DNA from: Pseudomonas delhiensis
GTDB lineage: Bacteria > Pseudomonadota > Gammaproteobacteria > Pseudomonadales > Pseudomonadaceae
Assembly: GCF_900187975.1 (NCBI RefSeq)
Contig: NZ_FZPC01000024.1
Location: 1-64,000, forward strand
Direction: 5' to 3'
DNA length: 64,000 nucleotides
In this document: positions 37,830 through 45,002 of the stretch, in pieces
Numbering within the stretch: position 1 is the first letter of the stretch
Layout of the letters: each line of letters opens with the position of its first letter
Notes under the pieces: model-generated
Databases searched by the model: none
Told to the model about the DNA's origin: nothing
The model's input: the letters and a program-made list of their open reading frames with translations, nothing else
Position numbers and translations under genes: made by a program

Positions 37830-37992
37830 TCACCCCCAACCCCTCTCCCGGAGGGAGAGGGAGGCTGATCCGGCGCTTCGCCGATAGGCCGGCGCACGAG
37901 CACGGGCCGTGCCCATCGGTAAGCACAATGTCCGCGCGCACACCGAACCGGCCCTCTCTCCCTTCAGGGAGAGGGCTGGGGAGAGGGCGCTC
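37830..37992. repeat. Divergent copy of the CCCTCTCCC hairpin pair between cobW and cobN
   Basis: A variant hairpin (CCCTCTCCCGGAGGGAGAGG) near 37842-37862 and an inverted CTCTCCCTTCAGGGAGAG near 37955-37975, about 115 bases apart. No flanking REP unit is seen, so this is a degenerate or shorter copy. Confidence 0.75.
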
Positions 37993-38016
37993 CTGACCGA
38001 GCGAAAGAGGTCCCCC

Positions 38017-41000
38017 ATGCACCTGCTGCGCACCCAACCCGGCGGCTTCGTCCCCGACGACGGCATCGCCCACCTGGCCCAGACGCCCGCCGAGCTGGTC
38101 ATCCTCTGCAGCGGCGATTCGCACCTGGCGCTGCTCGCCGAGGCCGCCCGCGAACTGCCGGCGGACTACCCGAGCCTGCGCCTGGCCAACCCCATGCAGC
38201 TGCAGAACCATGCCTCGGTGGACCTCTACGTCGACGAGGTGCTGCGGCACGCGAAGGTCATCCTGATCTCGGTGCACGGCGGCGTCGGCTACTGGCGCTA
38301 CGGCATCGAGCAACTGGTGGCCCTGGCCGAGCGCGGCGCCACCCTGGTCCTGGTCCCCGGCGACGACAAGCCCGACCCCGAACTGACCACGCTGTGCACG
38401 GTTCCCGCCGCCGAGGCCGAGCGCCTCTGGCAGTACCTGCGCCAGGGCGGCCTGGACAACGCCCGGCAGCTCTTCGCCAACCTGGCCAGCCGCTACCTGG
38501 GCCGCGCCTATCCCTGGAACGAACCGCGCGCCCTGCCCCGCGTGGCGCTGCACCATCCCCGGCACGCCAGCGCCGGGCTCGGCCACTGGCAGGCCGAGTG
38601 GAACCCCGACTGGCCGGTGGCGGCGCTGCTGTTCTACCGCACCCACCTGCAGGCGGCGAACACCGGTTTCATCGATGTCTTCTGCGAGCGCCTGGGGGCC
38701 CAAGGCCTCAACCCCCTGCCGATCGCCGTGGCCAGCCTCAAGGAAACGGCCTGCCTGGAGCAGGTCGAGGCACTGCTGGACGCCGCCTGCGCCGAGCTGG
38801 TCATCAACACCACCGGCTTCGCCCAGTCCAACCCGGAGGCGCCCCAGGCCCGCCCGTTCCGCCGCGACGTGCCGGTGCTGCAGGCCATCTGCTCGCTGGA
38901 CAACATCGAGCAGTGGCGCGCCAACGCCCAGGGCCTGGGCCCGCGCGACCTGGCCATGCACGTGGCGCTGCCGGAACTGGACGGCCGCCTGATCACCCGG
39001 CCGGTCAGCTTCAAGGGCCTGGCCTGGCGCAGCGAGCGCAGCCAGAGCGACGTGGTCTGCTACCTGGCGCACCGCCCGGGCATGGACTTCGTCGCCGAGC
39101 TGGCGCGGCGCTGGGTGCTGCTGGCGCGCAAGGCCAACGCCGACAAGCGCGTGGCGCTGATCCTGGCCAACTACCCGACCCGCGACGGCCGCATCGGCAA
39201 CGGCGTCGGCCTGGATACGCCGGCGGCGGCGCTGAACATCCTGCGCGCCCTGGAGGCCTCGGGCTACCCGGTGGCCGGCCTGCCAGAGACTGGCGATGCG
39301 CTTATCCACAGCCTGCTCGGCGGCGTGAGCAACGACCTCGACAGCCTCGACCTGCGCCCCTGCGCCCAGAGCCTGGAGCTGGCCGACTACCTGGCCTGCT
39401 TCGCGCGCCTGCCCGAGGCCAACCAGCGCGCCGTGCGCGAGCGCTGGGGCGAGCCCGAGCAGGACCCGATGTGCCGTGGCGGGCGGATGATGGTCGCCGG
39501 CCTGCGCCTGGGCCTGGCCTTCGTCGGCATCCAGCCGGCGCGCGGCTACCAGCTCGACCCGGCGGCCATCTACCACGACCCGGCGCTGGTCCCGCCCCAC
39601 GGCTACCTGGCCTTCTACTTCTGGCTGCGCGAGGCCTTCGGCGCCGACGCGGTGATCCACGTCGGCAAGCACGGCAACCTCGAATGGCTGCCGGGCAAGG
39701 GCGTGGGCCTGTCCGAGGAATGCTGGCCGGACGCGATCCTCGGCCCGCTGCCGAACCTCTACCCGTTCATCGTCAACGACCCCGGCGAGGGCGCCCAGGC
39801 CAAGCGCCGCAGCCAGGCGCTGATCATCGACCACCTGATGCCGCCGCTGACCCGCGCCGAGAACTACGGCCCGCTGCGCGACCTGGAGCGCCTGGCCGAC
39901 GAGTACTACGACGCCTCGCTGCTGGACCCGCGCCGCGCCGTGCAACTGCGCGGGGAAATCCTCGACGCGGTGCGCGCCGCCGCCCTCGACCGCGAACTGG
40001 GCCTGCAACTCAACGATGACCAAGACAGTTGGCTGCCACAACTGGATGCCTACCTCTGCGACCTCAAGGAATCGCAGATCCGCGACGGCCTGCACGTGTT
40101 CGGCGAATCGCCGGAGGGCCAACTGCGCCGCGACACCCTGCTGTCGCTGGTGCGCATCCCGCGCGGCGACGGCAAGGGCGGCAACGCCAGCCTGCTGCGC
40201 GCCCTGGCCGAGGACCTGCGCCTGGGCCGCGACCCGCTGGACAGCAACTTCGCCGAGCCCTGGGACGGCCCGCGCCCCGAGTCGCTGCTGGCCGTCAGCG
40301 ACGAACCCTGGCGCAGCAACGGCGACACCCGCGAACGCCTGGAACTGCTCGCCCTGCACCTGATCGAGGACGGCCTCGACGGCCCCGGCCCGGCCAGCGC
40401 GCTGGTCCTGCAGCAACTGCGCGAAAACGTGGCGCCGCTGCTCGACGCCTGCGGCGCCAACGAGACCGGCCAGTTGCTGGCCGGGCTCAACGGCCGCTTC
40501 GTCCCCGCCGGCCCCAGCGGTGCGCCCAGCCGCGGGCGGCTGGACGTGCTGCCCACCGGGCGCAACTTCTTCACCGTCGACGTACGCAACCTGCCCACGC
40601 CCACCGCCTACCGCCTGGGCTTCCAGTCCGCCAGCCGGTTGCTGGAACGGCACCTGCAGGACCACGGCGACCACCTGCGCCAGCTCGGCCTCTCGGTGTG
40701 GGGCACGGCGACCATGCGCAGCGGCGGCGACGACGTCGCCCAGGCCCTGGCGCTGCTCGGCGTGCGCCCGGTGTGGCAGGCCGGCAGCCAGCGCGTGGAA
40801 GACTTCGAGATACTGCCGCTGAGCCTGCTCGACCGCCCGCGGGTGGACGTGACCCTGCGCGTGTCCGGCTTCTTCCGCGACGCCTTCGCCAACCTCATCC
40901 GCCTGTTCGACGCGGCGGTGCAGGCGGTGGCGGCGCTGGACGAGCCGGACGACATGAACCCGCTGGCCACCCGCGTGCGCGCCGAAAGCGCCCAGTTGCA

Positions 41001-41748
41001 GGCCAACGGTGTGGCGGCGGAAGAAGCCCGGCGCCAGGCCGGCTGGCGCATCTTCGGCGCCCAGCCTGGCGCCTATGGCGCCGGCGTGCAGGGGGTGATC
41101 GAGGAACGCAGCTGGGAGAACCGCGCCGACCTCGCCGCGGCCTACCTGAACTGGGGCGGCTACGCCTACGGCGCCGGCGACGACGGCACCCCGGCCCGCG
41201 AGCGCTTCGCCCGGCGCCTGGACGGCCTGCAGGCGGTGCTGCACAACCAGGACAACCGCGAGCACGACATCCTCGATTCCAACGACTACTACCAGTTCCA
41301 GGGCGGCATGCTGGCCGCCGCCGAGGTCATCCAGGAGCGCCGCGTGGCCAGCTACCACGGCGACCACAGCCAGCCGGACAACCCGCGCATCCGCACGCTG
41401 AAGGAAGAACTCGGCCGCGTGCTGCGCGCCCGCGCGGTGAACCCGAAATGGATCGCCGGCATGAAGCGCCACGGCTACAAGGGCGCCTTCGAGATGGCGG
41501 CGACCGTGGACTACCTGTTCGCCTTCGACGCCACCAGCGAACTGGTGGAAGACCACCAGTACCAGCTACTGGCCGACGCCTACCTGCTGGACGACGACAC
41601 CCGCGAGTTCATCCGCCAGCACAACCCCGAGGCCCTGCGCGACATGGCCGAGAGGCTGCTGGAAGCGCAGCAGCGCGGGCTCTGGCAGGAGCCTGGGGAG
41701 TACCGCGAGACGCTGGAGAACATCCTGGTGGACAGCGAGGAGCAGTGA
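38017..41748 (+). CDS. cobN: Cobaltochelatase subunit CobN
   Basis: 1243 residues, typical length. Large ATP-dependent chelatase subunit inserting Co2+ into hydrogenobyrinic acid a,c-diamide. Visible family segments: LISVHGGVGYWRYGIEQL (about 87-104), FYFWLREAFGADAVIHVGKHGNLEWLPGKG (broken here only by the family's single insertion points), LTRAENYGPLRDLERLADEY, and the C-terminal YHGDHSQPDNPRIRTLKEEL. Start is set at ATG 38017 because the upstream frame is repeat-derived. Its likely AAA and VWA partners are encoded 2.2 kb downstream. Confidence 0.95.
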   Translation: MHLLRTQPGGFVPDDGIAHLAQTPAELVILCSGDSHLALLAEAARELPADYPSLRLANPMQLQNHASVDLYVDEVLRHAKVILISVHGGVGYWRYGIEQLVALAERGATLVLVPGDDKPDPELTTLCTVPAAEAERLWQYLRQGGLDNARQLFANLASRYLGRAYPWNEPRALPRVALHHPRHASAGLGHWQAEWNPDWPVAALLFYRTHLQAANTGFIDVFCERLGAQGLNPLPIAVASLKETACLEQVEALLDAACAELVINTTGFAQSNPEAPQARPFRRDVPVLQAICSLDNIEQWRANAQGLGPRDLAMHVALPELDGRLITRPVSFKGLAWRSERSQSDVVCYLAHRPGMDFVAELARRWVLLARKANADKRVALILANYPTRDGRIGNGVGLDTPAAALNILRALEASGYPVAGLPETGDALIHSLLGGVSNDLDSLDLRPCAQSLELADYLACFARLPEANQRAVRERWGEPEQDPMCRGGRMMVAGLRLGLAFVGIQPARGYQLDPAAIYHDPALVPPHGYLAFYFWLREAFGADAVIHVGKHGNLEWLPGKGVGLSEECWPDAILGPLPNLYPFIVNDPGEGAQAKRRSQALIIDHLMPPLTRAENYGPLRDLERLADEYYDASLLDPRRAVQLRGEILDAVRAAALDRELGLQLNDDQDSWLPQLDAYLCDLKESQIRDGLHVFGESPEGQLRRDTLLSLVRIPRGDGKGGNASLLRALAEDLRLGRDPLDSNFAEPWDGPRPESLLAVSDEPWRSNGDTRERLELLALHLIEDGLDGPGPASALVLQQLRENVAPLLDACGANETGQLLAGLNGRFVPAGPSGAPSRGRLDVLPTGRNFFTVDVRNLPTPTAYRLGFQSASRLLERHLQDHGDHLRQLGLSVWGTATMRSGGDDVAQALALLGVRPVWQAGSQRVEDFEILPLSLLDRPRVDVTLRVSGFFRDAFANLIRLFDAAVQAVAALDEPDDMNPLATRVRAESAQLQANGVAAEEARRQAGWRIFGAQPGAYGAGVQGVIEERSWENRADLAAAYLNWGGYAYGAGDDGTPARERFARRLDGLQAVLHNQDNREHDILDSNDYYQFQGGMLAAAEVIQERRVASYHGDHSQPDNPRIRTLKEELGRVLRARAVNPKWIAGMKRHGYKGAFEMAATVDYLFAFDATSELVEDHQYQLLADAYLLDDDTREFIRQHNPEALRDMAERLLEAQQRGLWQEPGEYRETLENILVDSEEQ

Positions 41749-42335: not shown

Positions 42336-43433
42336 TTACCCCCGCCGCAACCGCCCCGCCGCATCCAGCAACAACGCCTCGGTCCCACTCCACCCCAGGC
42401 AGCCATCGGTAATGGAAACCCCATAGCGCAGCTCGCCCTTCAGCGGCTGGCAGCCGTCGAACAGGTGGCTCTCCAGCATCACCCCGCGCAGCGACGCATC
42501 GCCGCCCAGGCGCTGGTCGAGCACGCTGGCCAGCACCGCCGGCTGGCGCAGCGGGTCCTTGCTGCTGTTGGCGTGGCTGCAGTCGACCATGATCCGCGCC
42601 GGGATGCCCTGCTGCTCCAATCCCTCGCGGGCCGCGCGCACGCTGGCCACGTCGTAGTTCGGGCCGCCGTGGCCGCCGCGCAGCACCAGGTGGGTGTCCG
42701 GGTTGCCGAGGGTCTGCACCAGCGCCGGGCGGCCCAGGCCGTCGATGCCGAAGTGCTGGTGCGGGTGCGCCGCCGAGCGCATGGCGTCGCAGGCGATGCC
42801 CAGGCTGCCGTCGGTGCCGTTCTTGAAGCCCACCGGCAGGTCCAAGCCGCTGACCATCTCGCGGTGCACCTGGGATTCGCTGGTGCGCGCGCCGATGGCC
42901 GCCCAGCCCAGCAGGTCGTCGAGGTAGCCGGCCACCAGCGGCTGCAGCAGTTCGGTGGCCACCGGCAGGCCGCGTTCGAGCATGCCCAGCATCAGCCGCC
43001 GCGACAGCGCCAGACCCTCGGCCATGTCACCGCTGCCGTCCAGGTGCGGGTCGTACACCAGGCCCTTCCAGCCGATGGTGGTGCGCGGTTTCTCGACGTA
43101 GGCGCGCATCACCAGCAGCAGCTGGTCGCTCACTTCGGGGGCCAGGGCGGCGAGGCGCTCGGCGTAGTCGAGGGCGGCATCGGCGTCGTGCAGGGAACAG
43201 GGGCCGACCACCACCAGCAGGCGCGGGTCGCGGCCGTCGAGGATGGCGCGGATGGCCTGGCGGTCGTGCTGCACGCGTTCGGCCAGGGCGGCGGAAAGCG
43301 GCAGGCGCTGGCGCAGTTCGGCGGGGCTCGGCAGCGGCTGTTCGCGGCGGCGGAGGCTGGGGCGCGGCAGTTCGAGGACTTCGGCGGACTGCGGCAGGTC
43401 GTTGCGGATCAGGGCGGAAACGGAGGAATTCAT
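42336..43433 (-). CDS. 3-deoxy-7-phosphoheptulonate (DAHP) synthase, class I
   Basis: 365 residues; start at 43433 (MNSSVSALIRNDLPQ) is preceded by sequence with no other good start. Condenses PEP and erythrose-4-phosphate, the first step of aromatic amino acid synthesis. Motifs: VVVGPCSLHDADAALDYAERL (PEP/metal site), MRAYVEKPRTTIGWKGLVYDP, GWAAIGARTSESQVHREMVSG, VQTLGNPDTHLVLRGGHGGP, DCSHANSSKDPLRQ. AroF/G/H type. The N-terminal inhibitor-binding extension is present, but which amino acid inhibits it cannot be told. A transcription attenuator-like leader lies upstream. Confidence 0.93.
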   Translation of the reverse strand: MNSSVSALIRNDLPQSAEVLELPRPSLRRREQPLPSPAELRQRLPLSAALAERVQHDRQAIRAILDGRDPRLLVVVGPCSLHDADAALDYAERLAALAPEVSDQLLLVMRAYVEKPRTTIGWKGLVYDPHLDGSGDMAEGLALSRRLMLGMLERGLPVATELLQPLVAGYLDDLLGWAAIGARTSESQVHREMVSGLDLPVGFKNGTDGSLGIACDAMRSAAHPHQHFGIDGLGRPALVQTLGNPDTHLVLRGGHGGPNYDVASVRAAREGLEQQGIPARIMVDCSHANSSKDPLRQPAVLASVLDQRLGGDASLRGVMLESHLFDGCQPLKGELRYGVSITDGCLGWSGTEALLLDAAGRLRRG

Positions 43434-43476
43434 GGACTGGCATCCTTGGCCGGCGCGGTCGTGGCCGCGCGCGGCG

Positions 43477-43578
43477 CTATCTGAGTGTTCGACTGAGGTG
43501 TTCGGGTGTGGCAGCGGCACGGCTGCTAAATCGCCAGTCGGAGGTGCGGTAATAGCGGTAGGTGGTGTAGGCGGTCAT
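43477..43578 (-). CDS. Aromatic-rich mini-ORF between terminator and DAHP synthase gene
   Basis: 33 codons, starting MTAYTTYRYYRTSDWRF, preceded by AGAGGA 8 bases before the ATG and ending 43 bases before the DAHP synthase start. The first 17 residues include four Tyr, one Trp and one Phe, an extreme enrichment. It lies after the intrinsic terminator, so it is translated only when transcription reads through. Inference: a second, translational or coupling, leader peptide; it could also be a small protein. Confidence 0.55.
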   Translation of the reverse strand: MTAYTTYRYYRTSDWRFSSRAAATPEHLSRTLR

Positions 43579-43620: not shown

Positions 43621-43658
43621 AAAAACAAAAACCCCGGTCGGGTTGCCGACCGGGGTTT
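43621..43658 (-). terminator. Intrinsic terminator in the DAHP synthase leader (attenuator)
   Basis: On the minus strand, AAACCCCGGTCGG-CAAC-CCGACCGGGGTTT forms a 13-bp perfect stem with a 4-base loop, followed directly by TTGTTTTT. It lies 51 bases after the stop of the upstream aromatic leader peptide and about 190 bases before the structural gene. A second hairpin, GGCGCCCT/AGGGTCGCC (43676-43699), precedes it, giving alternative pairing partners. Confidence 0.88.
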
Positions 43659-43708
43659 CGTGAAGCTGTCTGGTTGGCGACCCTGCTTGCTAGGGCGCCT
43701 GTGGGGTA

Positions 43709-43843
43709 TCAGGCGCGCCTGTGGCTAAACCAATACCCATGGAAGAAATAACCGGCGGCAGCGGCCAGCACCCGCGCGCGCGCGACCGCGGAGCCGAGGG
43801 CACCGGGGCGGGCGAGGGACTGGATGGACAGGCTGGACGGCAT
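43709..43843 (-). CDS. Aromatic leader peptide of the DAHP synthase attenuator
   Basis: 44 codons, ATG with GGAG 7 bases upstream. The first 31 residues are ordinary (MPSSLSIQSLARPGALGS...), but residues 31-41 read GYFFHGYWFSH: six aromatics of nine at positions 32-39 plus flanks, then the stop after RRA. A run of Phe/Tyr/Trp codons just before an intrinsic terminator is the architecture of amino-acid-sensing attenuators (as in E. coli pheA, trp). Ribosome stalling at these codons under aromatic starvation would favour read-through into the DAHP synthase gene. Confidence 0.75.
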   Translation of the reverse strand: MPSSLSIQSLARPGALGSAVARARVLAAAAGYFFHGYWFSHRRA

Positions 43844-44000
43844 GGTTATCTCCACAAGATGCCGGCCAAGCTACCGCATCGGCGCCGGGCTTTCAATCAT
43901 CCTTTCCTATCGCCTTCATCGATGGCGCCTCGCCCGCCCGCGCCGGCTTCGCTACCATTCGCCGTTCAAGCCCACCCAGGCACGCAGCAGGTAACGCCCC

Positions 44001-45002
44001 ATGCAACCGCATTTCCCCCTCGCCGCCGTGGTCGCCGCCGACGACCTGAAACTGGCGCTGTGCCTGGCCGCCATCGACCCGGCCATCGGCGGGGTGCTGA
44101 TCGAGGGCCCGCGCGGCATGGCCAAGTCGACCCTGGCCCGCGGCGTGGCCGACCTGCTCGACGGCGGGCGCTTCGTCACCCTGCCCCTGGGCGCCAGCGA
44201 GGAACGCATCGTCGGTACCCTCGACCTCGACGCCGCCCTGGGCGAGGGCCGCGCGCGCTTCTCCCCGGGCATCCTGGCCAATGCCGACGGCGGCGTACTC
44301 TACGTCGACGAAGTGAACCTGCTGCCCGACCACCTGGTGGACCTGCTGCTGGACGTGGCCGCCAGCGGCGTCAACCACGTCGAGCGCGACGGCCTGTCCC
44401 ACAGCCACCCGGCGCGCTTCGTGCTGATCGGCACCATGAACCCCGAGGAAGGCGAGCTGCGCCCGCAGCTGCTTGACCGCTTCGGCCTGAAGGTCGAGCT
44501 GGGCGGCACGCCGGCGCCGGCCGAGCGCGCCGAGATCGTCCGCCGCCGCCTGGCCTTCGACGCCGACCCACAGGCCTTCCTCGGCCACTGGCAGGCCGAA
44601 CGGGACGCCCTGCGCCAGCGCTGCGCCCAGGCCCGCCAGCGTCTTCCCGGCATCCCCCTGGACGACGCCGCGCTGCAGGCCATCGCCGAGCGCTGCTACG
44701 CCGCCGGGGTGGACGGCCTGCGCGCCGACCTGGTCTGGCTGCGCGGCGCCCGCGCCCATGCCGCCTGGCGCGGCGCCGAGCGCATCGAGAAGGAGGATAT
44801 CGACGCCCTGGAGCCCTTCGCCCTCGCCCACCGCCGCCGCCATGCACCGCCCCCACCGGCACAGCCGCACGCACCTCAGGCCCCTGCCGCCAACCAACCC
44901 GAACAAGGCACACAGAACGAAGGCCAGTGGGGCGAACTGCCGCCCCGCGCCGTGCCCGCCGGCGCCGCCCGCGAACTGCCGCGCTGGCCAAAAAAGCCCT
45001 GA
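44001..45002 (+). CDS. ChlI-like AAA ATPase (magnesium chelatase family, likely cobaltochelatase partner)
   Basis: 333 residues. Walker A is [16 protein letters not shown] (about 34-49), Walker [21 protein letters not shown], sensor [20 protein letters not shown]: a ChlI/BchI-type AAA+ module. No chlorophyll genes are present and CobN is encoded just upstream, so the inferred role is to energise cobalt insertion by CobN in place of CobS. A Pro/Ala/Gln-rich linker forms the C-terminus (about 275-333). The next gene encodes the VWA partner. Confidence 0.85.

Follow-up and report, generated by a model that had tools for sequence, protein, structure and literature searches.

The window, the whole stretch of 64,000 nucleotides of Pseudomonas delhiensis DNA analysed here, carries on its minus strand a gene for a class I DAHP synthase that matches the models NF009395 (506.6 bits) and TIGR00034 (429.6 bits), both above cut-off. 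The gene is flanked by cobN (37909-41748, + strand) and by a chelatase ATPase-like gene (44001-45002, + strand), from which its leader is divergent. We take PA2943, between cobN and the chelatase gene, to be the P. aeruginosa counterpart; PA1750, judged by gene order, is presumably the wrong paralogue. The leader holds a probable promoter, a first short reading frame (ORF1), a series of hairpins ending in an intrinsic terminator, a match to the Rfam family P15 and, between the terminator and the DAHP synthase gene, a second short reading frame, ORF2, which is Tyr-rich and contains UGGCGAUUUAGC (table 1).

Table 1. Features of the DAHP synthase gene and its leader, with positions in the window.
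Feature	Position	Strand	Remarks
probable sigma-70-type promoter	43868..43896	-	TTGAAA 43896-43891, 17 nt, TAGCTT 43873-43868
ORF1, first leader peptide, 44 aa	43709..43843	-	MPSSLSIQSLARPGALGSAVARARVLAAAAGYFFHGYWFSHRRA; core kept in 107/107 loci
Rfam RF00627 match (P15, 'Pseudomonas sRNA P15')	43631..43751	-	102.4 bits, E 4.8e-21
segment 1 (GGGUAU)	43733..43738	-	within the ORF1 Gly-Tyr codons; partner 43709-43704
segment 2 (GGCGCGCCUGAUACCC)	43704..43719	-	overlaps ORF1 stop; partner segment 1 or 3
segment 3 (CAGGCGCCC)	43693..43701	-	partner segment 2 or 4
segment 4 (GGGUCGCCAACCAG)	43670..43683	-	partner segment 3 or, as antiterminator, 43651-43640
segment 5 (GGUCGGCAACCC)	43640..43651	-	last part of terminator 5' arm, the loop and first part of 3' arm; pairs with segment 4 in the antiterminator
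intrinsic terminator (5:6)	43621..43659	-	T-run 43631-43621; 555/578 cells paired
ORF2, second leader peptide, 33 aa	43477..43578	-	MTAYTTYRYYRTSDWRFSSRAAATPEHLSRTLR; SD GAGGA 43590-43586
conserved element TGGCGATTTAGC (codons W-R-F-S) in ORF2	43525..43536	-	exact in 77/100 anchored loci
GC-rich hairpin (GCGCGG...CCGCGC)	43453..43470	-	between ORF2 stop and DAHP synthase SD
class I DAHP synthase gene, regulated gene	42336..43433	-	SD AAGGA 43447-43443

The original prediction had placed upstream of this gene a 44-codon reading frame with a ribosome binding site and an aromatic cluster, followed by hairpins and a terminator with a T-run, and this anatomy is borne out. ORF1 starts at ATG 43843 behind an SD sequence GGAGA (43853-43849) and stops at TGA 43711-43709; the C-terminal end of its peptide reads GYFFHGYWFSHRRA (Y-F-F-H-G-Y-W-F), with the aromatic codons at 43750-43727. 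The terminator (43659-43628), its stem predicted at 13 pairs and counted here as 14, has a loop of 4 (CAAC) and the tail TGTTTTTCCG. Of the five terminator-like sites that a scan listed over 3.5 kb, where shuffles gave a mean of 1.4, it has the longest stem, and the hairpin folds at -25.9 kcal/mol (z -6.1). From the promoter boxes we infer a transcript start at about 43861.

The leader RNA belongs to a catalogued family, which the original prediction had missed. In an Rfam scan, P15 (RF00627, Rfam type 'Gene') was the sole match of the region above a gathering score, which for this family is 70; its consensus, translated by hand in the frame of ORF1, gives SYYFGYWLSHWRA followed by a stop. P15 has a single match in this genome. 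It is present in all 25 genomes of the genus, in 200 of the family's 248, in 27 of 293 genomes in a sample of the order (12 from the same family) and in 5 of 274 in a sample of the class. Three of these five were already known; one is taken as a new true member outside the loci examined below (L149; 69.8 bits, DAHP synthase present, peptide ...YFYGYWFSRYGV) and one as a false match (L150; 28.4 bits, no DAHP synthase). The 107 loci examined are the best-scoring matches together with a chosen diverse set, not all matches; a weak match lacking a DAHP synthase (L026; 30.3 bits, second in a genome with a true one) and a 10-base dummy (L057) were excluded.

A DAHP synthase gene lies downstream on the same strand in all 107 loci examined. 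Twenty of the 48 P15-negative genomes of the family were tested: 19 have a DAHP synthase paralogue 50-54% identical, with an additional 63% fragment in G059, and the 70% complete G071 has no match. The P. delhiensis genome carries both types of enzyme; its second class I DAHP synthase (G000:C81:34915-35898) is 53% identical, and that locus has neither leader motif. Among 80 named loci, 21 have a synthase at least 63% identical (Pseudomonas, Stutzerimonas, Halopseudomonas, Chromohalobacter, Salinicola, Halomonas and Modicisalibacter) and 59 have paralogues. When up to 650 nt upstream of each were searched (a few stretches being shorter, that of L187 only 30 nt), the 21 loci gave the ORF1 motif in 18, and the motif or the peptide in 21 (L169 motif only); for ORF2 the corresponding figures were 19 and 20. 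The 59 paralogues gave one loose ORF1 match (TGGTTTAT in L172) and no ORF2 motif, with one stray WRFS string (L202). By these counts P15 goes with one DAHP synthase subfamily.

The aromatic cluster, whose conservation in relatives was at issue, is encoded at every P15 locus examined. With codons anchored on the Trp (107/107), the preceding Tyr is kept in 105 and the following Phe in 104. At codons -5 to -3, 92 loci have aromatic residues throughout, 14 have two and a single locus has one; these codons interchange TAT, TAC, TTT and TTC, with a nearly constant first base, so that Phe and Tyr replace each other before the core. The core itself, GGG TAT TGG TTT AGC, is kept codon by codon in 96, 101, 107, 103 and 103 of the 107 loci. 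In three neighbouring genes TTT occurs 0 times (TTC 45) and TAT 3 times (TAC 39), so the core does not reflect ordinary codon use; its invariance at the level of bases is explained in part by segment 1, which sits in GGG TAT. An ATG with an SD sequence stands in phase in 51 of the 53 nonredundant loci, and that filter found none in the other 2. TTGAA(A/C) boxes with TAAGCT- or TATGGT-like partners at similar spacing precede ORF1 in many of 45 upstream regions (of the 53) inspected by eye; a stricter promoter scan of the region listed no promoter. Among three peptides tried, none matched Pfam, and NCBIfam returned a single match, to ORF1, at E 0.13, far under the cut-off. The pattern of substitution indicates that ORF1 is selected as a peptide.

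The original prediction also foresaw mutually exclusive pairings, and these are found: helices 2:3 and 4:5 compete with 3:4 and 5:6, and covariation is seen in 2:3, 4:5 and 5:6. Over the whole mixed alignments, indels left RNAalifold with hardly any structure or none at all, and the helices were therefore counted on the coordinates of one leader (L001), over 53 nonredundant leaders of the 107 and against 500 shuffles, which ignore shared ancestry. Helix 1:2 is paired in 265/312 cells, with no double changes and no column covariation among the 53 leaders; visual inspection showed compensatory changes in L102 and L109. Helix 2:3 (306/369 paired) has 10 double-change cells where shuffles give 3.8, a number reached by 0/500, and the core of 4:5 (359/424) has 15 against 5.8, also reached by 0/500. 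The terminator helix 5:6 has 23 against 6.9, again reached by 0/500, and is the only helix whose pair-type count lies above the shuffles; those of 2:3 and 4:5 do not, being reached by 437/500 and 152/500. Covariation in 3:4 (345/423 paired) is weak: its 8 double-change cells compare with 5.0 in shuffles, and 36/500 shuffles reach that number. Extending 4:5 on its 3' side (ACC with GGU) gives pairing in 168/197 cells and no covariation. On these counts the leader is a six-segment switch, in which 1:2, 3:4 and the terminator 5:6 alternate with 2:3 and the antiterminator 4:5.

Helix 4:5 is best paired in its own register, since sliding the partner by 1-3 positions lowers the 359 paired cells of 424 to 93-299. 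The partners of its two middle positions lie in the terminator loop, under no demand from the terminator, and these positions pair in 44/106 cells, where permutation gives 30.3 and reaches 44 in 0/5000 trials. With controls that ignore shared ancestry, the middle of 4:5 is the strongest single argument for a predicted antiterminator. A distant member of the family (L079; 28.8 bits) matches perfectly in altered sequence, GTGCTGCC with GGCAGCAC. In the window, the predicted hairpins fold at -15.8 kcal/mol for 1:2 (z -2.5), -16.3 for 2:3 (z -4.4) and -13.2 for 3:4 (z -3.1); the 4:5 fold, at -13.1 kcal/mol (z -1.4), does not stand out in stability given its composition.

Modelled folding of the 53 leaders shows how ribosome position could set the switch. 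With RNA made to just beyond segment 4 and a ribosome on the Trp codon, 2:3 is predicted in 33/53 and 3:4 in 11/53, while 3:4 forms in 45/53 with the ribosome on the stop codon (10-nt mask) and in 41/53 with no ribosome. Once segment 5 has been made, a ribosome on Trp gives 4:5 in 47/53 and 2:3 in 42/53; at equilibrium, 4:5 still wins in 32/53 leaders free of ribosomes and, when a ribosome occupies the stop codon (13-nt mask), in 29/53. Because 4:5 wins at equilibrium even without a stall, termination must rest, in this model, on the order of folding, with 3:4 formed first.

By sequence and folding, the leader thus has the parts of an attenuator: a reading frame with an SD sequence, conserved codons for the end products, an intrinsic terminator and an exclusive antiterminator. 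These are laid out in the his manner (1:2, 3:4 and 5:6 against 2:3 and 4:5), with 3:4 weak and 1:2 entering by hairpin stability only. P15 is very likely the terminated leader of a ribosome-mediated transcription attenuator upstream of the DAHP synthase gene. The original prediction of an attenuator is to that extent upheld, and incomplete in that it overlooked both P15 and ORF2. RNA polymerase would start near 43861 and a ribosome would translate ORF1. Were Phe-, Tyr- or Trp-tRNA short, the ribosome would stall on the F/Y-Y-W-F codons and cover segment 1, so that 2 could pair with 3 and segment 4 would be left free to pair with the terminator loop and 5' arm, allowing readthrough into ORF2 and the DAHP synthase gene. 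With ample aminoacyl-tRNAs, or with ORF1 untranslated, 3:4 would form and the terminator would fold, and termination at about 43621 would leave the short RNA catalogued as P15. The sensing of tRNA, the kinetics and the transcript ends at this site are our inference.

Other readings of P15 and ORF1 fit the same observations less well. P15 might be a trans-acting sRNA, with its position ahead of a DAHP synthase gene being incidental or secondary, as its Rfam type 'Gene' would suggest, and attenuator RNAs can gain trans roles, as did rnTrpL of Sinorhizobium. An sRNA alone, however, needs no leader ORF, and all 107 loci examined precede the same gene and retain the aromatic frame, with Phe/Tyr codon exchanges that preserve the class of amino acid and alternative pairings that covary; such a reading is improbable. 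On the side of the sRNA reading, P15 is also named among detected sRNAs in print, in the available part of PMC2375449. Still less probable, to the point of being nearly negligible, is a ligand-binding riboswitch, which Livny (2008) proposed from a synteny shared with the TPP riboswitch (PMC2527527, as far as its accessible text goes): the seven Rfam matches listed, to a limit of E 5, include no riboswitch, the segments form short helices and the conserved part is a run of aromatic codons within a reading frame. Nor does ORF1 look like a sensor working by nascent-peptide arrest, in the manner of TnaC, rather than by hungry codons, although G-Y-W-F-S is nearly invariant, beyond the demands of codon hunger. 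Phe and Tyr exchange freely in the preceding codons, which an arrest peptide would tolerate badly, and third bases are invariant too (TTT in 103/107), which a peptide does not explain and segment 1 explains in part; we give arrest little credence, if marginally more than the sRNA reading.

Beyond the terminator, an equivalent of ORF2 could be anchored in 100/107 loci, a few of them by a looser pattern and one (L068) misplaced; some of the loci where none was anchored (L065, L069-L073 and L102) have another aromatic-rich short ORF there. The conserved element of ORF2 occurs as TGGCGATTTACC in 12 more of the 100 anchored loci, and TGGCGATTT is kept in 95; by codon, TGG is found in 98, CGA in 97, TTT in 97 and AGC in 80. 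CGA is used once in 1980 codons of nearby genes, and the genome holds one exact copy of TGGCGATTTAGC, that of ORF2. To avoid circularity, the DNA motif TGGCGNTTTA was searched alone. It is present in 92/107 loci, and in 92/92 an ATG with an SD sequence stands in phase with it (in one locus additionally out of phase); aromatic codons make up, on average, 32% of the 11 that precede it in this frame, compared with 1% and 4% in the other frames. ORF2 is thus very probably a translated, conserved and aromatic-rich second leader, judged from its sequence, and it probably serves as a further regulatory leader peptide once transcription has passed the terminator.

The ORF2 stop lies 44-49 nt from the estimated DAHP synthase start in 61/100 loci and overlaps it in 7; in the window the gap is 43 nt. 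Of the gaps of 25-80 nt (30/47 nonredundant), 29/30 fold below -8 kcal/mol (median -20.3), values that have no shuffled control. In two clades (L027, L074-L078 and relatives) ORF2 is longer, reading WRFSxxRSxQxAxSDRxxxGG, with the interleaved complements GCCACC:GGTGGC and CGGTCGG:CCGACCG, which may perhaps form alternative hairpins or a pseudoknot. ORF1 (43732-43724) and ORF2 (43536-43525), both on the minus strand, share the conserved TGG(CGA)TTTAGC, a likeness that possibly marks a common origin or a common signal.

How ORF2 might act was approached through several candidates. As a translational attenuator, ORF2 would work through CUGGCG, which would mask the DAHP synthase ribosome-binding site unless covered by a stalled ribosome, and the consensus folds of two clade alignments, of 16 and 17 loci, do pair CUGGCG with UGCCAG or CGCCAG between SD and ATG. 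This pairing is not universal among the loci, and modelled folding of 46 leaders gave a mean SD accessibility of 0.40 free, 0.43 with a stall on Trp and 0.47 on the stop, the modelled stall raising it by more than 0.1 in 9 leaders and lowering it in 7. Since accessibility responds so inconsistently, unlike a switch of the erm or anti-TRAP type, ORF2 was rejected as a simple translational attenuator, and we regard the reading as unlikely. An RNA partner of the ORF2 core was also rejected: 6-base complements lie in the stretch between the core and the DAHP synthase gene in 22/47 loci against 20.2 for shuffled cores, near the start of that gene in 20 against 11.4, in early coding sequence in 38 against 29.1 and upstream in 46 against 46.7. 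The ORF1 core exceeds its shuffles in all three downstream regions (38 against 22.7, 34 against 13.3 and 43 against 29.5), the 34 being of 47 loci near the DAHP synthase start, and we therefore read core complementarity as unspecific. A Rho-type bubble of C over G is not particular to ORF2 (C 0.40, G 0.22), which resembles the DAHP synthase coding control (0.43, 0.26), with C above 1.5 G in 34/46 and 40/53, respectively. A repeated genomic element was likewise set aside, as 1 exact and 16 one-mismatch copies make 17 against 11 for the reversed control. We tentatively consider a further reading, somewhat short of an even chance as a whole, in which two aromatic sensors act in series in the Pseudomonadaceae and Halomonas-type bacteria, a his-type attenuator and then a UGGCGAUUUAGC leader with a mechanism unlike known ones, ORF2 either encoding an arrest peptide coupled to a signal in the RNA or depending on a trans factor. 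Its conserved bases use CGA and TTT, codons almost absent nearby, and so pose a testable puzzle.

The reading of P15 as an attenuated leader offers a role for an Rfam sRNA family for which we found no mechanism in print. On this reading, translation of Phe, Tyr and Trp codons would directly control the entry step of aromatic synthesis in pseudomonads, and annotation and sRNA studies that take P15 as a trans regulator would need correction. In the available part of PMC2375449, P15 is listed among the sRNAs 'detected by Livny et al.' in P. aeruginosa, as would be expected if transcription ends early here. A 3'-end study of the same species reports premature ends at trpGDC (PMC8297930); its main text, in the part available, does not contain 'PA2943', 'P15' or 'DAHP', nor does the available main text of a survey of premature terminators (PMC2965389) contain 'DAHP', 'aroF' or 'P15'. 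Within the open-access literature searched, PA2943 turned up once, in a single paper, among listed values. That literature, as far as its accessible text goes and with older subscription papers outside it, yielded no paper that treats P15 as an attenuator or describes a Pseudomonas DAHP synthase leader peptide. The reassignment of P15, the mixed Phe/Tyr/Trp sensor and the tandem architecture therefore appear undescribed in searchable papers.

The closest parallel in layout is the enteric his leader, a six-segment attenuator in which 1:2, 3:4 and 5:6 alternate with 2:3 and 4:5. The two share alternating pairings, a leader peptide enriched in the amino acid under control and an intrinsic terminator; they differ in that Phe, Tyr and Trp together are proposed to be sensed here, before a different gene and with a second leader ORF, and the region has no match to Rfam His_leader in a scan up to E 5. 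In E. coli, pheL/pheA and trpL/trpE each respond to a single amino acid through a four-segment layout, and the DAHP synthases are under repressor control. Within the genus, Olekhnovich and Gussin (2001) reportedly described attenuators at trpE and trpGDC of P. putida, which are other genes. The control proposed here would resemble that of E. coli pheL/pheA and trpL/trpE, where the availability of charged Phe- or Trp-tRNA acts via the leader peptide (PMC11802643, in its accessible text). The principle of a leader peptide for a DAHP synthase is not new: in Corynebacterium glutamicum, aroR encodes a peptide with Phe-Tyr-Phe before the aroF DAHP synthase gene (PMC4046766, PMC11802643). This arrangement, an aromatic-codon leader before a DAHP synthase gene, is like that of Pseudomonas in its described layout; in the portions of those papers available, aroR, from the Actinobacteria, is unlike it in having no Trp in the quoted cluster, a reported lack of response to Tyr and no mention of a second peptide. 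With Rfam P15 the kinship is one of sequence family itself, an sRNA gene in Rfam and, in our reading, the leader of a DAHP synthase gene.
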